From a virus, in IMG/VR virus record IMGVR_UViG_3300044540_000109, positions 1 through 30,719 of that record: 30,719 bases of DNA; one strand, given 5' to 3'. Under the pieces are notes generated by a model. The model ran no database searches and had not been told where the DNA came from. It worked only from the letters and a program-made list of their open reading frames with translations. Within the stretch, counting starts at the first letter, position 1, and each line of letters starts with the position of its first letter. Position numbers and translations under genes: made by a program. Positions 3,757-19,991 of the stretch are shown piece after piece.

Positions 3757-4428
3757 CTAATCCCTATTCAGATTTTTCTTTAACCACTCTATTTTACTCT
3801 CATGAATCAAAACACAAGGACTCGATAAAAAAAACTCACAGCCATTACCACCCTTTCCCTTATCCAAATATTGGAAATTTTCAGTATATGTAACTTTAGT
3901 AAAATCATCTTTACTAATTGCTCTTCCATCAATAGTCATATTCTTACCATCAAGATTAATAACATCATCAGTCAAACTATCAATATTTTGAAGATTAACC
4001 TTTTTTCTATCATCAGACATTGCCCATAAATCAAATACAGGACAAAATACAATTTCACTATCGTCAAATGGTATAACCAAATAAACATCACCTTTAACTA
4101 TTCTCTCACAAATATCTTTATCAGTACCACCAATTAATGAATTCTTTCTAACAACCGGATATTCATCTGTTTTATTCGCAATATCATTGAAAAAATCTTT
4201 AAAAGCTAATGGATCAGCATTTCTAGGAGCAGGTTTAAATAATTCAAAATTGTATTTTTTAGCTCTAGATCTCCACAATTGTGTATTACTAAATGAAAAG
4301 TTTTTGCAATTCTCATCCAATATCTGTAAAACATCAGCACCGTTAATCTCCTTAGTCCTATTAATAATAGGTAAGCTTTTATCAGGTCTAGCCAAGCTCT
4401 CAACAAATATTTCGTATTTCTTAATCAT
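3757..4428 (-). CDS. Leader-bearing protein, paralogue of next gene; possible ADP-ribosyltransferase-like fold
   Basis: The 223-aa protein starts MIKKYEIFVE, matching the shared leader with F-V-E at residues 8-10. The body aligns with the product of 4428-5045 in ENCKNFSF, LWR, a KDFF block, KNSLIGGT, YLVIPFD and a terminal WLKKNLN. Conserved LWR, a Ser-rich strand and an IPFD strand recall a family of phage proteins that look like ADP-ribosyltransferases (R...S...E order). I cannot see a convincing catalytic ExE, so this is a weak inference. It follows the upstream gene head to tail. TATAAATA, the T4 late-promoter consensus, lies on the minus strand at 4433-4440, 4 nt before the ATG. Confidence 0.6.
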   Translation of the reverse strand: MIKKYEIFVESLARPDKSLPIINRTKEINGADVLQILDENCKNFSFSNTQLWRSRAKKYNFELFKPAPRNADPLAFKDFFNDIANKTDEYPVVRKNSLIGGTDKDICERIVKGDVYLVIPFDDSEIVFCPVFDLWAMSDDRKKVNLQNIDSLTDDVINLDGKNMTIDGRAISKDDFTKVTYTENFQYLDKGKGGNGCEFFLSSPCVLIHESKIEWLKKNLNRD

Positions 4429-5045
4429 TATTTATTTATATTTTCTTTCAACCAATCTATTTTATCCATACCCAATAATAAACAATTTGAGTTTGTGAAA
4501 AATTCATATCCGAAACTTTTAACCTTTTCGTAATAACTAGCTATATTAGAAGACATTAAGATACTCTTTAATTCATCATTAGGAACTTTGAAATTCTCAT
4601 CATAATTCTTTAATAAGAAAATATCATCAGAGAAAACTTGTTTAACTTTAGACCATAATGCAATATCAGGAGAACCTGCGAATATTATATTAGCATTGTC
4701 AAATGGTATAACTAAAAACATTTTATAACCACTACCAAACATATCAGAACCAGCTTCTGTTGTAGATCCAATTAAACTTTTATATCTCGGTACAACATAA
4801 CCCTTCCTATTATCAAAAAAGTCTTTATAATCATAATTACCAATTGTTCTAGCTCTCTCAGCTTCTAAATACAATCCAAAATCACCAAAACTACTATTGG
4901 ATTTTCTATACAACATATCATTATCAAATGAAAAATTCTTACAATTTTCTCTAATAACATCTAAAAACTCAGCATCAGTAAGTTTCTTAGTTCTAGTCTC
5001 GGATTCCAAATCCTTAAATTCATTATATTCTAAAATTTTACGCAT
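4428..5045 (-). CDS. Leader-bearing protein, paralogue of the 3757 gene
   Basis: The 205-aa protein starts MRKILEYNEF, giving the leader ending Y-N-E (7-9). It shares with its downstream neighbour the blocks RENCKNFSF, YKDFF, YKSLIGST, FLVIPFDNANIIF and WLKENINK, while the stretches between have diverged. This indicates an old tandem duplication. The possible Arg of an ADP-ribosyltransferase-like site is in LYRKS, and the Ser in SLIGST; no clear ExE follows. It overlaps the next gene start by one base. Its promoter region is shared divergently with the membrane operon at 5100. Confidence 0.6.
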   Translation of the reverse strand: MRKILEYNEFKDLESETRTKKLTDAEFLDVIRENCKNFSFDNDMLYRKSNSSFGDFGLYLEAERARTIGNYDYKDFFDNRKGYVVPRYKSLIGSTTEAGSDMFGSGYKMFLVIPFDNANIIFAGSPDIALWSKVKQVFSDDIFLLKNYDENFKVPNDELKSILMSSNIASYYEKVKSFGYEFFTNSNCLLLGMDKIDWLKENINK

Positions 5046-6631: not shown

Positions 6632-7870
6632 CTATCCGAAAATATCATCAGCATCTAAAGCGTCTGAGTTAGTGAATCCATTAGAATCATCATCCTCTTC
6701 TGTATCACCGATAGCATCGGTAAATTCTTTTTCAACATCTTCTATTTCAGTTAATGACTTAAATCTAAAGTAATCGTTTACGATAGGTGCCATTTTTTCA
6801 AGAACTTCTTGTGTGAAGATTTCTTGTGTGAATAGATTCTTAGTCGTAACTTTTTTATCTAAGTGTGAAATATGCCAGAAGTTACCACCCGGTTTAAATG
6901 TCATTTCTCCTGTTGATTTATCAACTTCATATTTACCTTTTGCAATACCAATTTTATCAAAATACTCTGGACGACAGAAAGCATCTAATCCTGTGTATGG
7001 ATTCATACCAGTAGCAAATGAAATATCAAATCTGATTTTCTTAGGTTTAGCTAATCTTGATTTTTGTGTTTTGAATAAAACTGAAATACCAGATGCACCT
7101 AAATCCATATCATCCTCTTGTCCTGTTTTAAGTTGAGATTTTGACATCATACCGATCACTGAAGCACTGTATAATAGACCATTTCCGCCCTTCATCACAC
7201 TTTTGGGAAACATGTCGAGCGTTAAGTACGTATGATTAGCTACTAAAAGAGGAATATCCAAGTAACCTAAGTCGGTATTAATACTTCTAAACAAAGATCC
7301 AAGTGCTTTTGCTTTTGTCATATCTTGTTTAATATCACCTTTTAACAAATCGTTTTTCTCTTTATTAGAAGCCATTTGTCCTAATGAGTCAATAACAATC
7401 ATTAATTTAGGTAGTTCGTATCCATCAAGTTTCTGAGCTTTTAAATCATCAATTAATTGAGTTAACAACATATTAACATCTTCTACTTTATTAGAACGAA
7501 TTAATCTAAATCTATCGATTGAGTTATCAACACCATATTTAGGCAAATCTTCTAAGTCGATTGCGTTCTCAGTATCAATATAGATAACACAATACCCAGC
7601 TTTTTGAGCGTGTTTAGCACAAGAGAAACACATAAATGATTTACCTGCTCCTGACTCTCCAGCGAATACACTAATTCTATTAGTAGCGATACCACCACCT
7701 AATAGTCTTCCTGACATTGCCGCGTCAACTAAATAAACACCGGTTGATATAAACACTTTTTCTTTTATTTCCTTTTCGATTACGATTGGAATACTTTTAC
7801 CTATATTATCTAATATAGTACCTACTTTACTAAATTCGAATTTTTTTCCTTCTTTAACTTGTTTTGCCAT
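6632..7870 (-). CDS. uvsX: UvsX-like recombinase (RecA family)
   Basis: The 412-aa protein is a RecA/Rad51-superfamily strand-exchange protein of the T4 UvsX type. Walker A is GESGAGKS (71-78), and Walker B is LMIVIDSL (156-163). A long RecA core follows, then a C-terminal acidic tail (EEDDDSNG near 395). UvsX forms filaments on single-stranded DNA and drives recombination-dependent replication and repair. The length is close to T4 UvsX (about 390 residues). It is transcribed from a minus-strand leader with a TTATATATA-type element about 25 nt or more upstream. The homing-endonuclease-like gene lies head to head at 7992. Confidence 0.93.
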   Translation of the reverse strand: MAKQVKEGKKFEFSKVGTILDNIGKSIPIVIEKEIKEKVFISTGVYLVDAAMSGRLLGGGIATNRISVFAGESGAGKSFMCFSCAKHAQKAGYCVIYIDTENAIDLEDLPKYGVDNSIDRFRLIRSNKVEDVNMLLTQLIDDLKAQKLDGYELPKLMIVIDSLGQMASNKEKNDLLKGDIKQDMTKAKALGSLFRSINTDLGYLDIPLLVANHTYLTLDMFPKSVMKGGNGLLYSASVIGMMSKSQLKTGQEDDMDLGASGISVLFKTQKSRLAKPKKIRFDISFATGMNPYTGLDAFCRPEYFDKIGIAKGKYEVDKSTGEMTFKPGGNFWHISHLDKKVTTKNLFTQEIFTQEVLEKMAPIVNDYFRFKSLTEIEDVEKEFTDAIGDTEEDDDSNGFTNSDALDADDIFG

Positions 7871-7991: not shown

Positions 7992-9053
7992 ATGACAAAA
8001 CAAGAATTCTTAGAAAGAGCAAGAGAAACACACGGATATAAATATCAATATCCATATTTACCCGATAAAATTTTATCACAAGATGATATTATTATAGAAT
8101 ATAAAGGAGTTGAATATACACAACGTGTAGTTAAACACATACTATTAGGTAGATGCCCTGAAAAAAATACACCAACAAAAACTACAAAAGAGTTCATAGC
8201 AGAAGCAGAAGCGGTATGGGGTAAAGATAAATATGATTATTCATTAACTGAATATAAAGGTGCTTTAAAGAAAATTAAAGTGAAATATGATGGTATCATC
8301 TTTGAACAAACAGCGGTATCACATTTGAGATCAGCACCTGAATTAAATATGAATCAAGAGTATTTTATAAAAAGAGCTATCGATAAATGGGGTAAGAAAT
8401 ATGATTATTCATTAGTTGAATATACGAATTGTAAATCTAAAGTAAAAATAATTTATAATAAGACTGGTGAAATATACGAACAAACACCATCATTACATCT
8501 TTCTTGTGCTCCAGAAAATATTCATCTTTCGGTAAGGAAAACAACCGAACAGTTTATAATTGAAGGAAATAGAGTTCATGATTTCAAATATTCTTATAAT
8601 AAGACAGAATATATAAAAAACAATATTAAAGTTATTATTACTTGTCCAATACATGGTGATTTTACACAAAATCCACTATCACACGTACAAGGTATTGGTT
8701 GCGCTAGCTGCAATGAAAGTAAAGGCGAAAAAGCTATTTCTAAGTATTTAGATAAGAATTTAATATCTTATTATAGACAGCATAAATTTGAAGATTGTAA
8801 AAATATATTTCAACTACCTTTTGATTTTTATATTCCATCTAAAAGACTTATAATTGAGTTTGATGGTAAGCAACATTACGAACCGATGGTATTTTTTGGT
8901 GGTGTTGAAGCTTATGAGAGATTGAAAGTAAATGATAATATAAAGAATGAGTATTGCGAGGATAACTACATTGATTTAGTTAGAATTCGATATGATTCGA
9001 TTGATAATATTGTAAGTATATTGGATGGTATATTTAAAAAGACAACTTGTTAG
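7992..9053 (+). CDS. Homing-endonuclease-like protein with four N-terminal repeats
   Basis: The 353-aa protein has four repeats of about 55-60 residues (roughly 3-58, 64-118, 120-175, 185-240), each with a KYxYS-x-x-EY core. The last carries a zinc-ribbon-like ending with CPIHGDF and CASC. These resemble the DNA-binding repeats found next to phage nuclease domains. The C-terminal domain (about 243-350) has GEKAI, LPFDFYIP, IIEFDGKQHY and a closing strand, as in PD-(D/E)xK or EDxHD (Vsr-like) nucleases; candidate acids are E246, D278 and E289, with D291 and H295. A free-standing homing endonuclease is the best guess. It stands alone next to uvsX. Confidence 0.65.
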   Translation: MTKQEFLERARETHGYKYQYPYLPDKILSQDDIIIEYKGVEYTQRVVKHILLGRCPEKNTPTKTTKEFIAEAEAVWGKDKYDYSLTEYKGALKKIKVKYDGIIFEQTAVSHLRSAPELNMNQEYFIKRAIDKWGKKYDYSLVEYTNCKSKVKIIYNKTGEIYEQTPSLHLSCAPENIHLSVRKTTEQFIIEGNRVHDFKYSYNKTEYIKNNIKVIITCPIHGDFTQNPLSHVQGIGCASCNESKGEKAISKYLDKNLISYYRQHKFEDCKNIFQLPFDFYIPSKRLIIEFDGKQHYEPMVFFGGVEAYERLKVNDNIKNEYCEDNYIDLVRIRYDSIDNIVSILDGIFKKTTC

Positions 9054-9066
9054 GTTGTCTTTTTTG
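9036..9066. terminator. Bidirectional terminator with both stop codons in its loop
   Basis: Stem AAAAAGACAAC / GTTGTCTTTTT with loop TTGTTAG. The plus-strand gene stops with TAG (9051-9053) and the minus-strand gene with TAA (read from 9052 to 9050), both inside the loop. T runs exist on both strands. Confidence 0.9.
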
Positions 9067-9421
9067 GGTTTATATAACAATTTATATAATCATAACCAGT
9101 AGTAATCCTAACGACTAAAGCAGTATTATCATATCTTATTCTTAATTTAGAAATGCTATCATTAACATCATTTAATGTACTTGATAAGTATGTATGGTAA
9201 TCCACCAACGAACTAATCTCATTCTCTTCTATAAAAGATGTCGTATTATTTTTCTCTTCTACATCCAATTTTATATTAACTATATAATAATACGAGCCTT
9301 TAGAGTTAGGATTCTCGGCTTTTACAACTTCACTATTATTATCCAGAAATTCCACAAAACACTCTTCAATATATTCAATTAGTGAATCATCTAAACTTTC
9401 ATTAAATTTTCTTATTTTCAT
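9050..9421 (-). CDS. Tandem paralogue 1 (leader MKIRKFNE)
   Basis: The 123-aa protein starts at the ATG at 9419-9421, chosen because all its relatives begin MKIRKFNE; an upstream in-frame ATG would add 16 unrelated residues. After the leader comes the family block IEYIEECFVEFLDNNSE. A variable middle follows, then a C-terminal KLRIRYDNTALVVR motif shared with its neighbours. It contains no cysteines beyond the one in the block and no membrane segment. It is last in the seven-gene minus-strand operon and ends in the bidirectional terminator. The function is unknown; packaging in the head is inferred from the leader. Confidence 0.75.
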   Translation of the reverse strand: MKIRKFNESLDDSLIEYIEECFVEFLDNNSEVVKAENPNSKGSYYYIVNIKLDVEEKNNTTSFIEENEISSLVDYHTYLSSTLNDVNDSISKLRIRYDNTALVVRITTGYDYINCYINPKKTT

Positions 9422-9432
9422 TTCTATTCTCT

Positions 9433-9798
9433 TTATTTCTGTGGTATTAAAAACACTGTAAAAAAGCATTTATTATTTATATAATTAAAGTTAGTTCTAA
9501 CAATCAACGAACTTTCATCATATTTAATTCTAAGTCTTTCAACTGCTTCAACAACATCGGACATTTTTTTGGATAAGCTATTAATTTCATTATACATAAT
9601 CATAAATTTCTCTTCACTCATAATAGCAGAGTTTTTTGGAACTATATTATTATCCTTTTTGTCACAAATAATTACTATCTCTAGATAAGATTCCTCATTT
9701 TTCAAGTATGCACCATCATCAAATAATTCGACAAAACAATCCTCAATATATTCTATTAGTTCATCAGAAACGTTTTCGTTAAATTTTCGTATTTTCAT
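9433..9798 (-). CDS. Tandem paralogue 2 (leader MKIRKFNE)
   Basis: The 121-aa protein has MKIRKFNENVSDE followed by LIEYIEDCFVELFDDGA and a C-terminal RLRIKYDESSLIVR. Paralogue 1 is its closest relative by eye, since both have an S/D-rich linker and the same basic C-terminal strand. The middle (about 35-80) differs from other members except for hydrophobic spacing, and has a lysine- and aspartate-rich loop (CDKKDNN). It lies 11 nt upstream of paralogue 1's start. Confidence 0.75.
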   Translation of the reverse strand: MKIRKFNENVSDELIEYIEDCFVELFDDGAYLKNEESYLEIVIICDKKDNNIVPKNSAIMSEEKFMIMYNEINSLSKKMSDVVEAVERLRIKYDESSLIVRTNFNYINNKCFFTVFLIPQK

Positions 9799-9802
9799 TT
9801 TA

Positions 9803-10144
9803 TTAATTTATTTTAGTGAATATTATTTGAAGGTTACTATCTGTTGATGACATACCAACTGATATTTTTACATCACTATCATATTTAGTTTTAATTCTAT
9901 CGATATATACATCAACATCACCAATAATATCATTTAATTTAGCGATATTATCTTTTAACTCTTTACAGTCATATTGCTTATTAAACTTTATGTTAAAGCA
10001 TTCTGGTATAATTACAGCACAATATCCACTAGAATTTATTCTATCATAGAATACGGATCCACTATCTATATACTCAGCAAAACAGTCTTGCACATATTCA
10101 ATAATATCGATATTAGAATTTTCGTTAAATTTTCTTATTTTCAT
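9803..10144 (-). CDS. Tandem paralogue 3 (leader MKIRKFNE)
   Basis: The 113-aa protein is the shortest of the array. The leader MKIRKFNEN is followed by IIEYVQDCFAEYIDSGS. The middle contains a CFNIKFNKQYDCKE stretch with two extra cysteines not seen in the other members. The C-terminal IDRIKTKYDSDVKISV keeps the family's basic strand. It begins 1 nt after the stop of paralogue 4 and ends 4 nt before the start of paralogue 2, so translation is probably coupled. Confidence 0.75.
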   Translation of the reverse strand: MKIRKFNENSNIDIIEYVQDCFAEYIDSGSVFYDRINSSGYCAVIIPECFNIKFNKQYDCKELKDNIAKLNDIIGDVDVYIDRIKTKYDSDVKISVGMSSTDSNLQIIFTKIN

Positions 10145-10145
10145 T

Positions 10146-10511
10146 TTATATTAGTGATTTAAAATGTAATTGTATATAATACCCAGATACTCTTGCTTCG
10201 ACTTCTAGTTTACTTTCATCGAATTTTGACAATACCATTTCAAGTCCTTGTTGGATTCTCTCTGATATTTCAGCTGCTTCTATTATATTATCAAATATAG
10301 AGTCTATTTGTTTATTTTTAAGAATCCACGAAAATTGCAATGATGGTATTACAAATTTTATGACTAGATTATCCAATCCTTCTGATGTTACAAATTCTTC
10401 AACCTCTGAGCCATTATCGATAAACTCAACAAAACAATCTTTTACATATTCGATAATTTTTTCAGTATTTGAAAAACTAGTTATATCTTCGTTAAATTTT
10501 CTTATTTTCAT
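10146..10511 (-). CDS. Tandem paralogue 4 (leader MKIRKFNE)
   Basis: The 121-aa protein begins MKIRKFNEDITSFSN and continues EKIIEYVKDCFVEFIDNGSE. This is almost identical to paralogue 5 over the first 36 residues, and the DNA is nearly identical there too. The rest of the two proteins has diverged strongly, which fits recent duplication or gene conversion of the 5' part. A helix (IIEAAEISERIQQGLEMVLSK) and a final LEVEARVSGYYIQ strand follow. Confidence 0.75.
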   Translation of the reverse strand: MKIRKFNEDITSFSNTEKIIEYVKDCFVEFIDNGSEVEEFVTSEGLDNLVIKFVIPSLQFSWILKNKQIDSIFDNIIEAAEISERIQQGLEMVLSKFDESKLEVEARVSGYYIQLHFKSLI

Positions 10512-10514
10512 TTT
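10420..10514. repeat. Direct repeat copy A (paralogue 4, 5' end)
   Basis: About 95 bases covering the first 28 or so codons and start region of paralogue 4. They match 10795-10889 at all but a handful of positions, mostly around the Ser-Asn versus Ser-Asp site. Confidence 0.75.
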
Positions 10515-10526
10515 TGTTTTTATTTT

Positions 10527-10886
10527 TTAATGTGTTAAAAACCTTATATCTATACCGGTTGAAATAATACCCATTTCAATTGTTAATACATTAGTATTAT
10601 ATCTATTTCTAATACTATCAATTGCGATTCTAATACCTTCAATAATATCACTAAATTCTCTAACATTATCAAATACGTCATTACAAGCATCATCAGTATA
10701 TCTAACAGAAAAAGTATCATTGATTTGTACATTTGGCATCCCAAATGAAATTGATAAAATATCATTATAATACGCTATATTAGCACCATCATCTATAAAC
10801 TCAACGAAACAATCTTTTACATATTCGATAATTTTTTCATTATCAGAAAAACTAGTTATATCTTCGTTAAATTTTCTTATTTTCAT
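10527..10886 (-). CDS. Tandem paralogue 5 (leader MKIRKFNE)
   Basis: The 119-aa protein starts MKIRKFNEDITSFSD and shares its first third with paralogue 4. The central part is variable, with a VRYTDDACNDVFDNV helix. A C-terminal IDSIRNRYNTNVLTIEM strand is equivalent to KYDES in the other copies. It lies 8 nt downstream of paralogue 6 and 15 nt upstream of paralogue 4. It has no predicted enzyme motif. Confidence 0.75.
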   Translation of the reverse strand: MKIRKFNEDITSFSDNEKIIEYVKDCFVEFIDDGANIAYYNDILSISFGMPNVQINDTFSVRYTDDACNDVFDNVREFSDIIEGIRIAIDSIRNRYNTNVLTIEMGIISTGIDIRFLTH

Positions 10887-10889
10887 TTT
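10795..10889. repeat. Direct repeat copy B (paralogue 5, 5' end)
   Basis: Second copy of the repeat at 10420-10514, covering the 5' end of paralogue 5. The matching ends abruptly further into the gene. Confidence 0.75.
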
Positions 10890-10894
10890 TATTT

Positions 10895-11269
10895 TTATTT
10901 TATTTCTCTAAGAAAGCAGGTTATTACCTTCTTATCCACTTTATCACCATCAGAATCATATTTATCTTCAACTTTAATTCTGATATGTAATTGATCATTA
11001 TATTTACTTTTTATTTTTTCAATACAATAATCTATATTTTGAAAAATATCATTAAAATTATTAATCTTATCAATAATATCATTGGCTTCAAACAATTTAC
11101 CATTAAGATTAAAGTCAATATTATATGGTATCTTTATCGCTATTATATTTTTATCTTTTGAGAAGCTTTCTAATACAACTGATCCATTATCCAAAAACTC
11201 AACAAAACAGTCTTTAACATATTCGAAGTCAACAGCAGTTGAGCTTTCGTTAAATTTTTTTAGTCTCAT
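10895..11269 (-). CDS. Tandem paralogue 6 (leader MRLKKFNE)
   Basis: The 124-aa protein has a slightly different leader (MRLKKFNESS) and then FEYVKDCFVEFLDNGS, the same core as the other five. Its C-terminal half is more charged (KVEDKYDSDGDKVDKK). It is the most divergent and first of the six array members in transcription order. Its ATG follows the stop of the 11271 gene by one base. The conserved CFVEF(L/I)D block right after the leader may be a folding or docking helix. Confidence 0.75.
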   Translation of the reverse strand: MRLKKFNESSTAVDFEYVKDCFVEFLDNGSVVLESFSKDKNIIAIKIPYNIDFNLNGKLFEANDIIDKINNFNDIFQNIDYCIEKIKSKYNDQLHIRIKVEDKYDSDGDKVDKKVITCFLREIK

Positions 11270-11270
11270 A

Positions 11271-11594
11271 TTATTTTCTAAATTTACTAGGGTACATTGT
11301 TCTAAGTTCGTGACCTTGTGGTATATCGGATACTTTTATACCCATAACTTTTTTCTCTGGTCCAACATCTTTACCATCCATTAGAAAGTTATTATTACTT
11401 GCCCAAGTTTCGATATTTCTAGTGAATGATTGTCCAACATTGAAAGGGAATCTAACATTTCGTTTATTTTCGATTTCTTTTATTTTACCATCACTTGATT
11501 TAGTAACTTTTATTATTAGGCTAGGATTTCTTGTACTGGTAAATACGATAACTTTATCGCTACCAAATTCTTCGAATATTTTTATATGTTTCAT
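11271..11594 (-). CDS. Leader-bearing protein (MKHIKIFEE), first gene of the array operon
   Basis: The 107-aa protein starts MKHIKIFEEFGSDK, matching the leader with F-E-E (7-9). The body is not related to the six paralogues: it is basic and has a strand-rich look (VIVFTSTRNPSLIIKVTK). It ends with a GHELRTMYPSKFRK tail. It is the first gene of the minus-strand operon, and its ATG lies 4 nt after a TTAATATATA motif. The shared leader with an unrelated body is good evidence that the leader is a separate functional unit. The family is unknown. Confidence 0.7.
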   Translation of the reverse strand: MKHIKIFEEFGSDKVIVFTSTRNPSLIIKVTKSSDGKIKEIENKRNVRFPFNVGQSFTRNIETWASNNNFLMDGKDVGPEKKVMGIKVSDIPQGHELRTMYPSKFRK

Positions 11595-17893: not shown

Positions 17894-18469
17894 ATGGACA
17901 AATTTTCCTCATTAAAACCAAAAGAGGTTATTGATAATGATAGTAAAGATAAAGTAATATTCTCGAATGATCACTTAAAGATTATTCAATATGAAGATTG
18001 GTCAATAATAAAAGAGAATGATGGTGCTTTTTGTATTCCTTATCTAATTGAAAAGAATCAAATCGTAATCAGAAACGAATATATACCAACATTTAAATAT
18101 GTTGATTCACAAGAATATCATATTACATTAGTTGGTGGTTCAATCGAAAACGGTGAATCACCTGAAACAGCTATGTTAAGAGAACTTGAAGAAGAAGCGG
18201 GAATAGTTCTTAATGAGAATTATAATCTTCAAGCTTTAAAGCCTTTATTTATTAGTAAAGGAATCACGCAAAAATTACATCTATACATAATACCTCTGAA
18301 CGAAAGAGAATATACTGAAGTTACTGCTGTTGGGGATGGTTCTAAAGCAGAAAAACTAAGTAGATCAGTAAAGGTAGATGTAAAATTTATTAACTCTTTA
18401 AACACGTCAGATTTAATTACTGATTATATGTTAATGAAAGTTAAAGAATATATGAATTTATTGAAATGA
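17894..18469 (+). CDS. Nudix hydrolase, ADP-ribose pyrophosphatase-like (191 aa)
   Basis: The 191-aa protein has a perfect Nudix box: G-x5-E-x7-RELEEEAGI (about 82-104). The N-terminal strands (FCIPYLIEKNQIVIRNEYIP) and the position of the box after LVGG are like ADP-ribose pyrophosphatases, which make AMP and ribose-5-phosphate. It sits between two leader-bearing genes: its ATG abuts the upstream stop, and its own stop overlaps the next start by 4 bases. It does not itself carry the leader. The operon is preceded by a late-type motif, unlike the Nudix genes at 14384 and 26613. Confidence 0.88.
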   Translation: MDKFSSLKPKEVIDNDSKDKVIFSNDHLKIIQYEDWSIIKENDGAFCIPYLIEKNQIVIRNEYIPTFKYVDSQEYHITLVGGSIENGESPETAMLRELEEEAGIVLNENYNLQALKPLFISKGITQKLHLYIIPLNEREYTEVTAVGDGSKAEKLSRSVKVDVKFINSLNTSDLITDYMLMKVKEYMNLLK

Positions 18470-19125
18470 GAATAAGAAGATTTAACGAATCAAAGGAAGA
18501 AGATTTAGAAGAATATTTTATTGATTTTATCGATTATGGATTTTCTTATACTAACCAATTAAATAAATTCTTCTTAAAGTTAAATATCAAAGACAAGCAA
18601 GTAGATTTTAGTGAAATCTATGCTATGTATGATATGCTTATTAATAGATTATTAGATACAAAAGGTATTTCAAAGACAGTTTTTGAATTTAAAGAAACTG
18701 TTATAAATGTTATGGTTGAAATAGCAAATAAAATGACTGATGAAGATGTTATCATAAAAGTTATTTTTAAAGGACAAGAGTTAAAATTAAAACCTTTTGG
18801 TGTAAGAATTTATAGTTATATTACCGATTCTGTGCCTAACAAGAAAACTATTTATTCAATAACATTAGAATGTTATGATATTAATAATGTTAAAAAATTA
18901 ATAACTTGGAGTGTTAAGAATGGTGGACACGTAACTGATCAAATAACAAAAGATAATAGTCTTGTAAGAATAGGTGGAAACAATATAAAAATAGATATTG
19001 AAAATGCTACTATAATATTTAATAGTATTATAGATAAAAGTATAGTGCAACTATACCTAGATAATGATAGAGGATTAGGAGTATTTAAAGAAATAATGAC
19101 ACCTGAAATGTTATCAAAAATATAA
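18466..19125 (+). CDS. Leader-bearing protein related to the tandem array (219 aa)
   Basis: The 219-aa protein starts MRIRRFNESKEEDLEEY and continues FIDFIDYGFSY, which is recognisably the leader plus (C)FVEFIDNGS block of the 9050-11269 array. It is therefore a dispersed and longer relative. The extra 100 or so residues form a second region (about 110-219) with many beta strands and no motif I know. It overlaps the Nudix stop by 4 bases and ends at a strong terminator. A packaged protein is suspected from the leader. Confidence 0.7.
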   Translation: MRIRRFNESKEEDLEEYFIDFIDYGFSYTNQLNKFFLKLNIKDKQVDFSEIYAMYDMLINRLLDTKGISKTVFEFKETVINVMVEIANKMTDEDVIIKVIFKGQELKLKPFGVRIYSYITDSVPNKKTIYSITLECYDINNVKKLITWSVKNGGHVTDQITKDNSLVRIGGNNIKIDIENATIIFNSIIDKSIVQLYLDNDRGLGVFKEIMTPEMLSKI

Positions 19126-19196: not shown

Positions 19197-19991
19197 ATGA
19201 TAACAAGAGTCGCACCATCACCTACCGGATTTTTTCACTTAGGAACATTGGTTATAGCACAATTAAATTACTTAATGGCGAGAGCAAATAAAGGAACCTT
19301 TATTCTTAGAATTGACGATACTGATCAAGATAGAAATAAAGACGAATATATTGACTATATCTATTCTCAAATGAGTGACTTTGGATTGGATCATGACATT
19401 ACATTCAAACAATCAGATAGATTGGCTAGATATGCTGATGTAGCTGCTAAAATTGGTAAAAAAACTGATGATGGATACGTTTTAGATATGGTATCTAATA
19501 CAGGAGATTTATACGATATGGTAATACTTAGAAATAACGGATTCCCAACATATAACTTCTGTTCTATTTTAGATGATTATGATTATGATGTTACGAATAT
19601 TATTCGTGGTGCTGATCATATCGCAAACGAATTCAAACAAAAACAGATTTGGGATAGAATTTGTAAAGTATATGGGGACAAAACTTTCCCATCAGTTACA
19701 CATATGGGACTTTTGTTTGATGGTGCTAAAAAACTATCTAAAAGAAGTGGTAACGGAACTACACAGGATTATAGTGACTTTGATAAAGATGCTATTTTAA
19801 ATTGGTTGGTTAAATTTGGATGGTCACATCCCGATCCTAAATTTGATAAACACTACCCGACTTTAAGTATGACTCAAATGACTCAAATTTTTAATGATGG
19901 GAAAATTCTTAAAAACAATTGTAAAATTGATAGAAATAAATTAATATTCTTAGACAAGAAATGGAAAGGAATAAAAAAAGCCACTTTATAG
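19197..19991 (+). CDS. Minimal glutamyl-tRNA synthetase-like protein, catalytic core only
   Basis: The 264-aa protein is a class I GluRS-type catalytic core. It has APSPTGFFHLGT with the HIGH motif as HLGT (14-17), the glutamate-site strand FILRIDDTDQDR (35-46), PTYNFCSILDD, RGADHIAN and the KMSKS loop as KLSKRSG (179-185). A short stem-contact region (KIDRNKLIFLDKKW) follows, and the protein ends where the anticodon-binding domain of full GluRS (about 470 residues) would begin. It is thus nearer in size to GluQ-type tRNA(Asp)-modifying enzymes (about 300 residues). It may charge or modify a tRNA, or act on another acceptor. I see no tRNA gene nearby. Confidence 0.85.
   Translation: MITRVAPSPTGFFHLGTLVIAQLNYLMARANKGTFILRIDDTDQDRNKDEYIDYIYSQMSDFGLDHDITFKQSDRLARYADVAAKIGKKTDDGYVLDMVSNTGDLYDMVILRNNGFPTYNFCSILDDYDYDVTNIIRGADHIANEFKQKQIWDRICKVYGDKTFPSVTHMGLLFDGAKKLSKRSGNGTTQDYSDFDKDAILNWLVKFGWSHPDPKFDKHYPTLSMTQMTQIFNDGKILKNNCKIDRNKLIFLDKKWKGIKKATL

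Follow-up and report, generated by a model that had tools for sequence, protein, structure and literature searches.

The occurrence of six adjacent, related genes that begin with nearly the same eight residues has led us to ask what so short a leader is for. The genes lie on the minus strand at positions 9050-11269 of the virus record IMGVR_UViG_3300044540_000109, which was analysed over its entire length (30,719 bases, hereafter the window). Their N-terminus reads MKIRKFNE in five proteins (A1 to A5) and MRLKKFNE in the sixth (A6), and all six share a further block, [IF]EY[IV]xxCFxE..D, with eleven invariant columns in total (M1, K5, F6, N7 and E8 in the leader; E21, Y22, C26, F27, E29 and D32 in the block, A5 numbering). 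For the open reading frame (ORF) listed as 9050-9469 the true start is almost certainly 9421, the first position of MKIRKFNES. Since pairwise BLAST comparisons among the six give E values of 2e-10 to 2e-28, their likeness is not due to chance, and the initial annotation was right to describe them as tandem paralogues sharing leader and block. Our answer is that the leader is probably a capsid-targeting sequence (CTS) of the T4 type, and the six products capsid-targeted internal proteins that are ejected and likely act on the host; we infer their packaging, cleavage, ejection and host target from the comparisons set out below.

The window covers only part of its phage, a relative of the "Mahaphage" genomes of 634-735 kb. 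Its uvsX product is 79% identical to that of LR745206.1 (634,780 bp) and 76% identical to that of LR756502.1 (642,428 bp), the next closest being those of LR756504.1 (636 kb) and LR756501.1 (735 kb). Huge-phage genomes above 634 kb form the Mahaphage clade, with Bacteroidetes as predicted hosts (Al-Shayeb et al. 2020, PMC7162821). Because a first alignment-based scan of viral contigs returned pattern matches of which none was confirmed as a relative, relatives were gathered through uvsX synteny and profile searches, and 43 further ones were collected with uvsX as the anchor.

The complete relatives carry T4-type head genes, namely gp23 (E 1.8e-26), gp20 (E 2.7e-57) and terminase (E 9e-21), as well as a gp21-like protease that aligns with T4 gp21, including the conserved ELNHP/EFDHP and SSR motifs (protease and gp23 were found in the complete relatives W01-W04; gp20 was tested in W01). 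Fused to the protease in one ORF is a scaffold-like region of 11-13 tandem 14-residue repeats with the consensus KNIxYSEY[IL]AE(N/H/S)LD, every one of which carries the protease motif Y[IL]AE (LR745206.1 198546-200669, in L064/L065, with equivalents in LR756502, LR756504 and LR756501). The repeats resemble YQEFIAEA, the core of the T4 CTS, as seen in the IPII/III leader MKTYQEFIAE|A, and T4 gp22 carries LIAE, IAE and LAE sites. In T4 IPIII, residues 4 and 7 serve targeting and residues 8 and 10 processing, the gp21 motif being L/I-x-E (PMC9026906). The relatives' MKHLKxF places hydrophobics at L4 and F7, and the window's MKIRKFNE, one residue shorter, keeps the i, i+3 spacing (I3/F6). Leaders of W03 and W04 end in F[IL]NE|[SAN] (for example MKHLKRFKTFINE|S and MKNFTRFINE|N) and are a halfway form between that of T4 and MKHLKRFNE|S. 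The pro-domain of the capsid protein ends in INE|N in 16 of the 17 capsid proteins read and in IHE in the remaining one; its position suggests a processing site, to which the leader end FNE|S/N is similar. At P3 of the presumed cut site of the leader, F/Y prevails in the window, W01 and W02; many W03 and W04 leaders have L/I-N-E, and the glutamate is near-universal. We therefore propose that two hydrophobics three apart (I3/F6, or L4/F7 in the nine-residue form), followed by a glutamate within the first eight or nine residues, would recruit the protein to the prohead core, the tag presumably imitating one protease-scaffold repeat and docking on the core, and that the head-maturation protease would then cut after the leader glutamate.

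To correct the initial annotation on one more point, the leader is not confined to the array family but recurs across whole genomes of relatives. Leaders of the type MK[HY][LI][KR]x[FY](N)E start 86 of 936 ORFs in one of the two complete closest relatives and 110 of 971 in the other, as counted by mechanical ORF calling and a weight matrix trained on those same genomes. When the tagged proteins of both genomes are pooled with those of G005, a contig of 186 kb, and with 15 candidates picked by eye in the window, the total of 225 falls into 154 body clusters, 127 of them singletons. An unbiased N-terminal test of LR745206 found K2/L4/K5 at 42 ORF starts, where internal methionines would predict 0.18, and LR756502, LR756504 and G005 show a similar enrichment. 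A hydrophobic-x-E or (F/Y)E site occurs at residues 7-18 in 209 of 214 leaders and at about residues 19-30 in 65 of 214. In viral contigs the exact DNA pattern for MKHLK[KR]FNE was met in 74 stretches, on 43 body clusters and almost always at an ORF start; in 257 Gb of prokaryote genomes it was met once, and this lone match (L281, 36 residues to a stop) was judged internal and due to chance. Adjacent pairs of tagged genes number 34 against 10 expected in one genome and 53 against 13 in the other, and in LR745206 the median pI is 4.8 for tagged and 5.7 for untagged proteins. For the tagged proteins, PADLOC gave isolated, weak matches. The literature searched, most subscription papers lying outside its coverage, contained no description of a tag of this kind in these phages. 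One may wonder whether the likeness of the leaders is a by-product of duplication or recombination, or a translation-initiation signal, with no targeting role, as the near-identical 5' DNA of several paralogues (A4/A5 and a pair in L268) could suggest. However, the leader sits on 154 body clusters and its residues vary while the hydrophobic spacing and the glutamate stay; moreover, its codons broadly follow background usage, which argues that the tag is conserved as a peptide, and we hold a leader with no targeting role to be highly improbable. The earlier suggestion of a packaging tag thus gains support from the T4-type head genes, the CTS geometry, the similar capsid cut site and the more than 150 body clusters, packaging itself being what these features lead us to infer.

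What would such a leader deliver? The array bodies are 10-40% identical within one genome, and the initial annotation saw a fixed leader followed by variable bodies; the shared leader and block stand, but the bodies are not unrelated beyond the block, as homology spans the whole length and one fold is predicted. An AlphaFold model of A3 built with 12 relatives shows a single domain (mean pLDDT 83, pTM 0.72) in the order helix-strand-strand-long helix-strand-strand, with leader residues 4-8 disordered. The "basic strand" reported near the end (R/K-x-R/K-Y/F-D/N) is, in the model, where the second, long helix ends at its C-terminal side. After removal of the leader the proteins would measure 105-116 residues and be acidic (pI 4.1-4.9). 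No Pfam or PHROG family was found for the array family, and searches against the PDB gave no profile match below E 0.03 and no Foldseek match below 0.06; a match of A5 to the DNA mimic ocr (E 0.044) was dismissed as chance. By sequence and fold alike, then, the bodies match no solved structure or known family, and membership of T4 IPI, IPII and IPIII by body homology is not supported. The internal proteins of T4 have been described as a varied set of defence proteins with only the CTS in common (PMC3012670), and IPIII is required on one E. coli strain (PMC9391042). Each mature array product would be a single small acidic alpha-beta-beta-alpha-beta-beta domain; by analogy with T4 the array proteins are likely ejected and host-directed, the domain most probably being aimed at a host target (defence or takeover factor).

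The island that separates uvsX from the genes upstream of it is a turnover hotspot with zero to six family copies. The window holds six copies, L013, L014 and L028 three each at the same place, L268 two, and L012, L019 and L025 one each, while the closest uvsX relatives (L007-L009) have none; island content is wholly replaced in close relatives, and the wider family is dispersed in the LR745206 and LR756502 genomes. The tandem expansion and copy-number variation anticipated in the initial annotation are therefore borne out. At least one strictly matching leader gene is present in 29 of the 39 uvsX islands examined, and an HNH-type endonuclease, recognised by motif, in 27 of the 39. The HNH/homing-type endonuclease of the window, encoded opposite to the array, may drive the turnover of neighbouring tagged genes. 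The diversifying pressure once suspected is not supported: the sole unsaturated orthologue pair (L012 versus L268) gives a dN/dS of 0.153/0.691 = 0.22 overall and 0.24 in the body, where a value above 1 would be expected, and since synonymous sites are saturated among the window paralogues, as in other pairs, dN/dS among the six array genes is meaningless. A4 and A5 have a mosaic look, with identical codons at 26 of 29 identical residues in the 5' module, and in the L268 pair the leader codons are likewise identical; because in both pairs the bodies have diverged, recombination of the 5' module is favoured over simple drift, and it accounts for the fixed leader and variable body at least as well as diversifying selection. 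We propose that the array was born by tandem duplication at the hotspot beside uvsX and the homing endonuclease, and that recombination through the shared 5' module could re-tag divergent bodies.

These data also bear on a different possibility, namely that the tag does target the capsid but that the six proteins are structural, as prohead core filler or head-size or DNA-condensation factors like T4 gp67 and gp68. The single fold of the array and the purifying selection on the sole measurable pair are compatible with it; huge genomes need big, complex cores, and T4 IPIII has been tied to head assembly (PMC9026906). Nevertheless, zero to six copies and full replacement of the island in close relatives are unlike an essential structural part, bodies only 10-40% identical within one genome fit it poorly, and no scaffold-like coiled repeats occur in the six proteins. 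We consider a structural role unlikely and retain that of ejected, host-directed internal proteins.

Features of the window discussed in the text
Feature	Coordinates	Strand	Length (aa)	N-terminus	Remark
uvsX/RecA-like gene	6632..7870	-			downstream of array; synteny anchor
HNH/homing-type endonuclease	7992..9053	+			between array and uvsX; PHROG 559, E 4e-64
A1	9050..9421	-	123	MKIRKFNESLDDSLIEYIEECFVEFLD...	start = leader ATG, not longest ORF (9469)
A1 leader	9398..9421	-		MKIRKFNE	proposed capsid-targeting propeptide; predicted cut after E8
A2	9433..9798	-	121	MKIRKFNENV...	
A3	9803..10144	-	113	MKIRKFNENS...	AlphaFold model: disordered leader, then alpha-beta-beta-alpha-beta-beta domain
A4	10146..10511	-	121	MKIRKFNEDITSFS...	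first 32 codons near-identical to A5, body 24% identical
A5	10527..10886	-	119		
A6	10895..11269	-	124	MRLKKFNESS...	
Neighbouring tagged gene	11271..11594	-	107	MKHIKIFEEFGSDKVIVFTSTRNP...	
Dispersed tagged gene D1	18466..19125	+	219	MRIRRFNESKEEDLEEYFIDFIDYGF...	separate family, orthologues in L026 and L049

The window and its relatives hold other tagged genes. Relatives of the gene that adjoins A6 occur in the same island in L012, L018, L026, L027, L034, L049 and L050, and also in L268. The gene at 18466 was first read as a dispersed relative of the array; it does share the leader and first block but otherwise forms a separate tagged family, whose orthologues are 31% identical to it. Its model (pLDDT 55) is of low confidence and too weak to use beyond the order of secondary structure, which starts helix-strand-strand-helix as in the array. 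Positions 3757-4428 and 4428-5045 of the window hold a tandem paralogue pair with the tag-like starts MIKKYEIFVES and MRKILEYNEF, a second small tagged array, and two cysteine-rich ORFs of the DnaJ type (CxxCxGxG; 1758-2219 and 2239-2505) both begin M[KR]YL[KR]SITEM, a variant leader ending in ITE. A further tagged tandem family (leader followed by REELQDFCETHLAYLLDEGYEI) is found in L250, L255 and L260, its paralogues adjacent as in the window. At 19197-19991 lies a glutamyl/glutaminyl-tRNA synthetase-like ORF (264 residues, PSPTGFFHLGTL), shorter than the usual full synthetase.

Tagged genes of known type in the relatives encode an Rnl1-type RNA ligase, a lysozyme, an M15 peptidase, and GNAT and HNH proteins. 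The T4 Rnl1-type ligase with a leader-like start lies at L111:11690-12961 (LR756502), and an ORF of similar N-terminus at 470485-471747 of LR745206.1; the lysozyme at L111:9926-10687 (LR756502) bears MRYIKTFNE as its leader, which one would not expect on an internal head protein. Ligase (annotated in PHROG as a tail-fibre attachment catalyst), lysozyme and peptidase raise the question of whether the leader instead directs proteins to the assembling tail or baseplate, to an intracellular compartment made by the phage, or to a site at the host surface or membrane, and a P3 residue unlike the T4 motif points the same way. Yet the leader has no hydrophobic secretion core, its geometry and terminal glutamate agree with the CTS, the end of the capsid pro-domain and the core repeats, and early tRNA repair by the ligase also fits injection; targeting away from the head seems to us improbable. 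If the ligase is packaged, tRNA repair could begin at the first moment of infection.

Several observations nonetheless weigh against a capsid-targeting leader and ejected array proteins. The six mature proteins are acidic and the T4 internal proteins basic, a real difference on account of which we claim that they work like T4 internal proteins and not that they strictly belong among them. About 100 tags per genome is far above the four of T4, and the tagged Rnl1-type ligase, lysozyme/endolysin and M15 peptidase are not classical internal proteins. P3 of the presumed cut site is F/Y in the window versus L/I in T4, and no head gene was recognised in the 30.7-kb window fragment itself. Finally, in Lak phage, tested as an outgroup, a gp21-like fusion is present while the 14-residue repeat and the leader are both absent. 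Several proteins in the first 420 kb of Lak-A1 (MK250016.1) share a recurrent N-terminus, MNKxIKxL(L/M)ESLFDD, possibly the Lak equivalent of the tag.

A wider proposal, whose truth we judge about evenly balanced, is that Mahaphage-type phages would inject some 85-110 proteins by means of one short tag that mimics the repeat of the protease-scaffold core, hotspots such as the uvsX island swapping the cargo by 5'-tag recombination. If so, the tag would allow the injected proteins of the largest known phages, most of whose genes lack an assigned function, to be listed from sequence alone, and the T4 internal-protein idea would come to cover about a tenth of the genome instead of four proteins. 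It would also supply a large list of candidate anti-defence or takeover proteins against Bacteroidota, the predicted hosts of the genomes above 634 kb. How the cargo might be loaded, in concrete terms, is suggested by the CTS-like repeats of the protease-scaffold fusion.

Among known systems, the closest are IPI, IPII, IPIII and Alt of T4, with which the array shares a short N-terminal leader (here a proposed propeptide), hydrophobics three apart, a terminal glutamate and several bodies behind one leader; relatives of the window phage also have the gp21-type protease and gp23/gp20 head. The T4 proteins likewise vary between phages, and anti-restriction roles are invoked for them (PMC3012670, PMC9391042). 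They differ in number (four tagged in T4 versus about 85-110 ORFs per genome in the Mahaphage-type relatives), in the site (F/Y-N-E in most leaders here, L/I-x-E in T4) and in the bodies, which here are acidic and resemble no solved structure in sequence or, convincingly, in fold. phiKZ and SPN3US are also large phages with many ejected proteins in their heads, and a prohead protease cuts some of these after glutamate (PMC5694885); SPN3US, however, uses an A-x-E site, mostly long propeptides (>100 residues) and few processed proteins, in contrast to one short tag on dozens of genes. As for gp21 and gp22 of T4, the protease domain aligns with the former and the repeats carry [LI]AE sites like the latter, whereas here a single polypeptide joins the protease to the scaffold-like region with its 11-13 regular 14-residue repeats.

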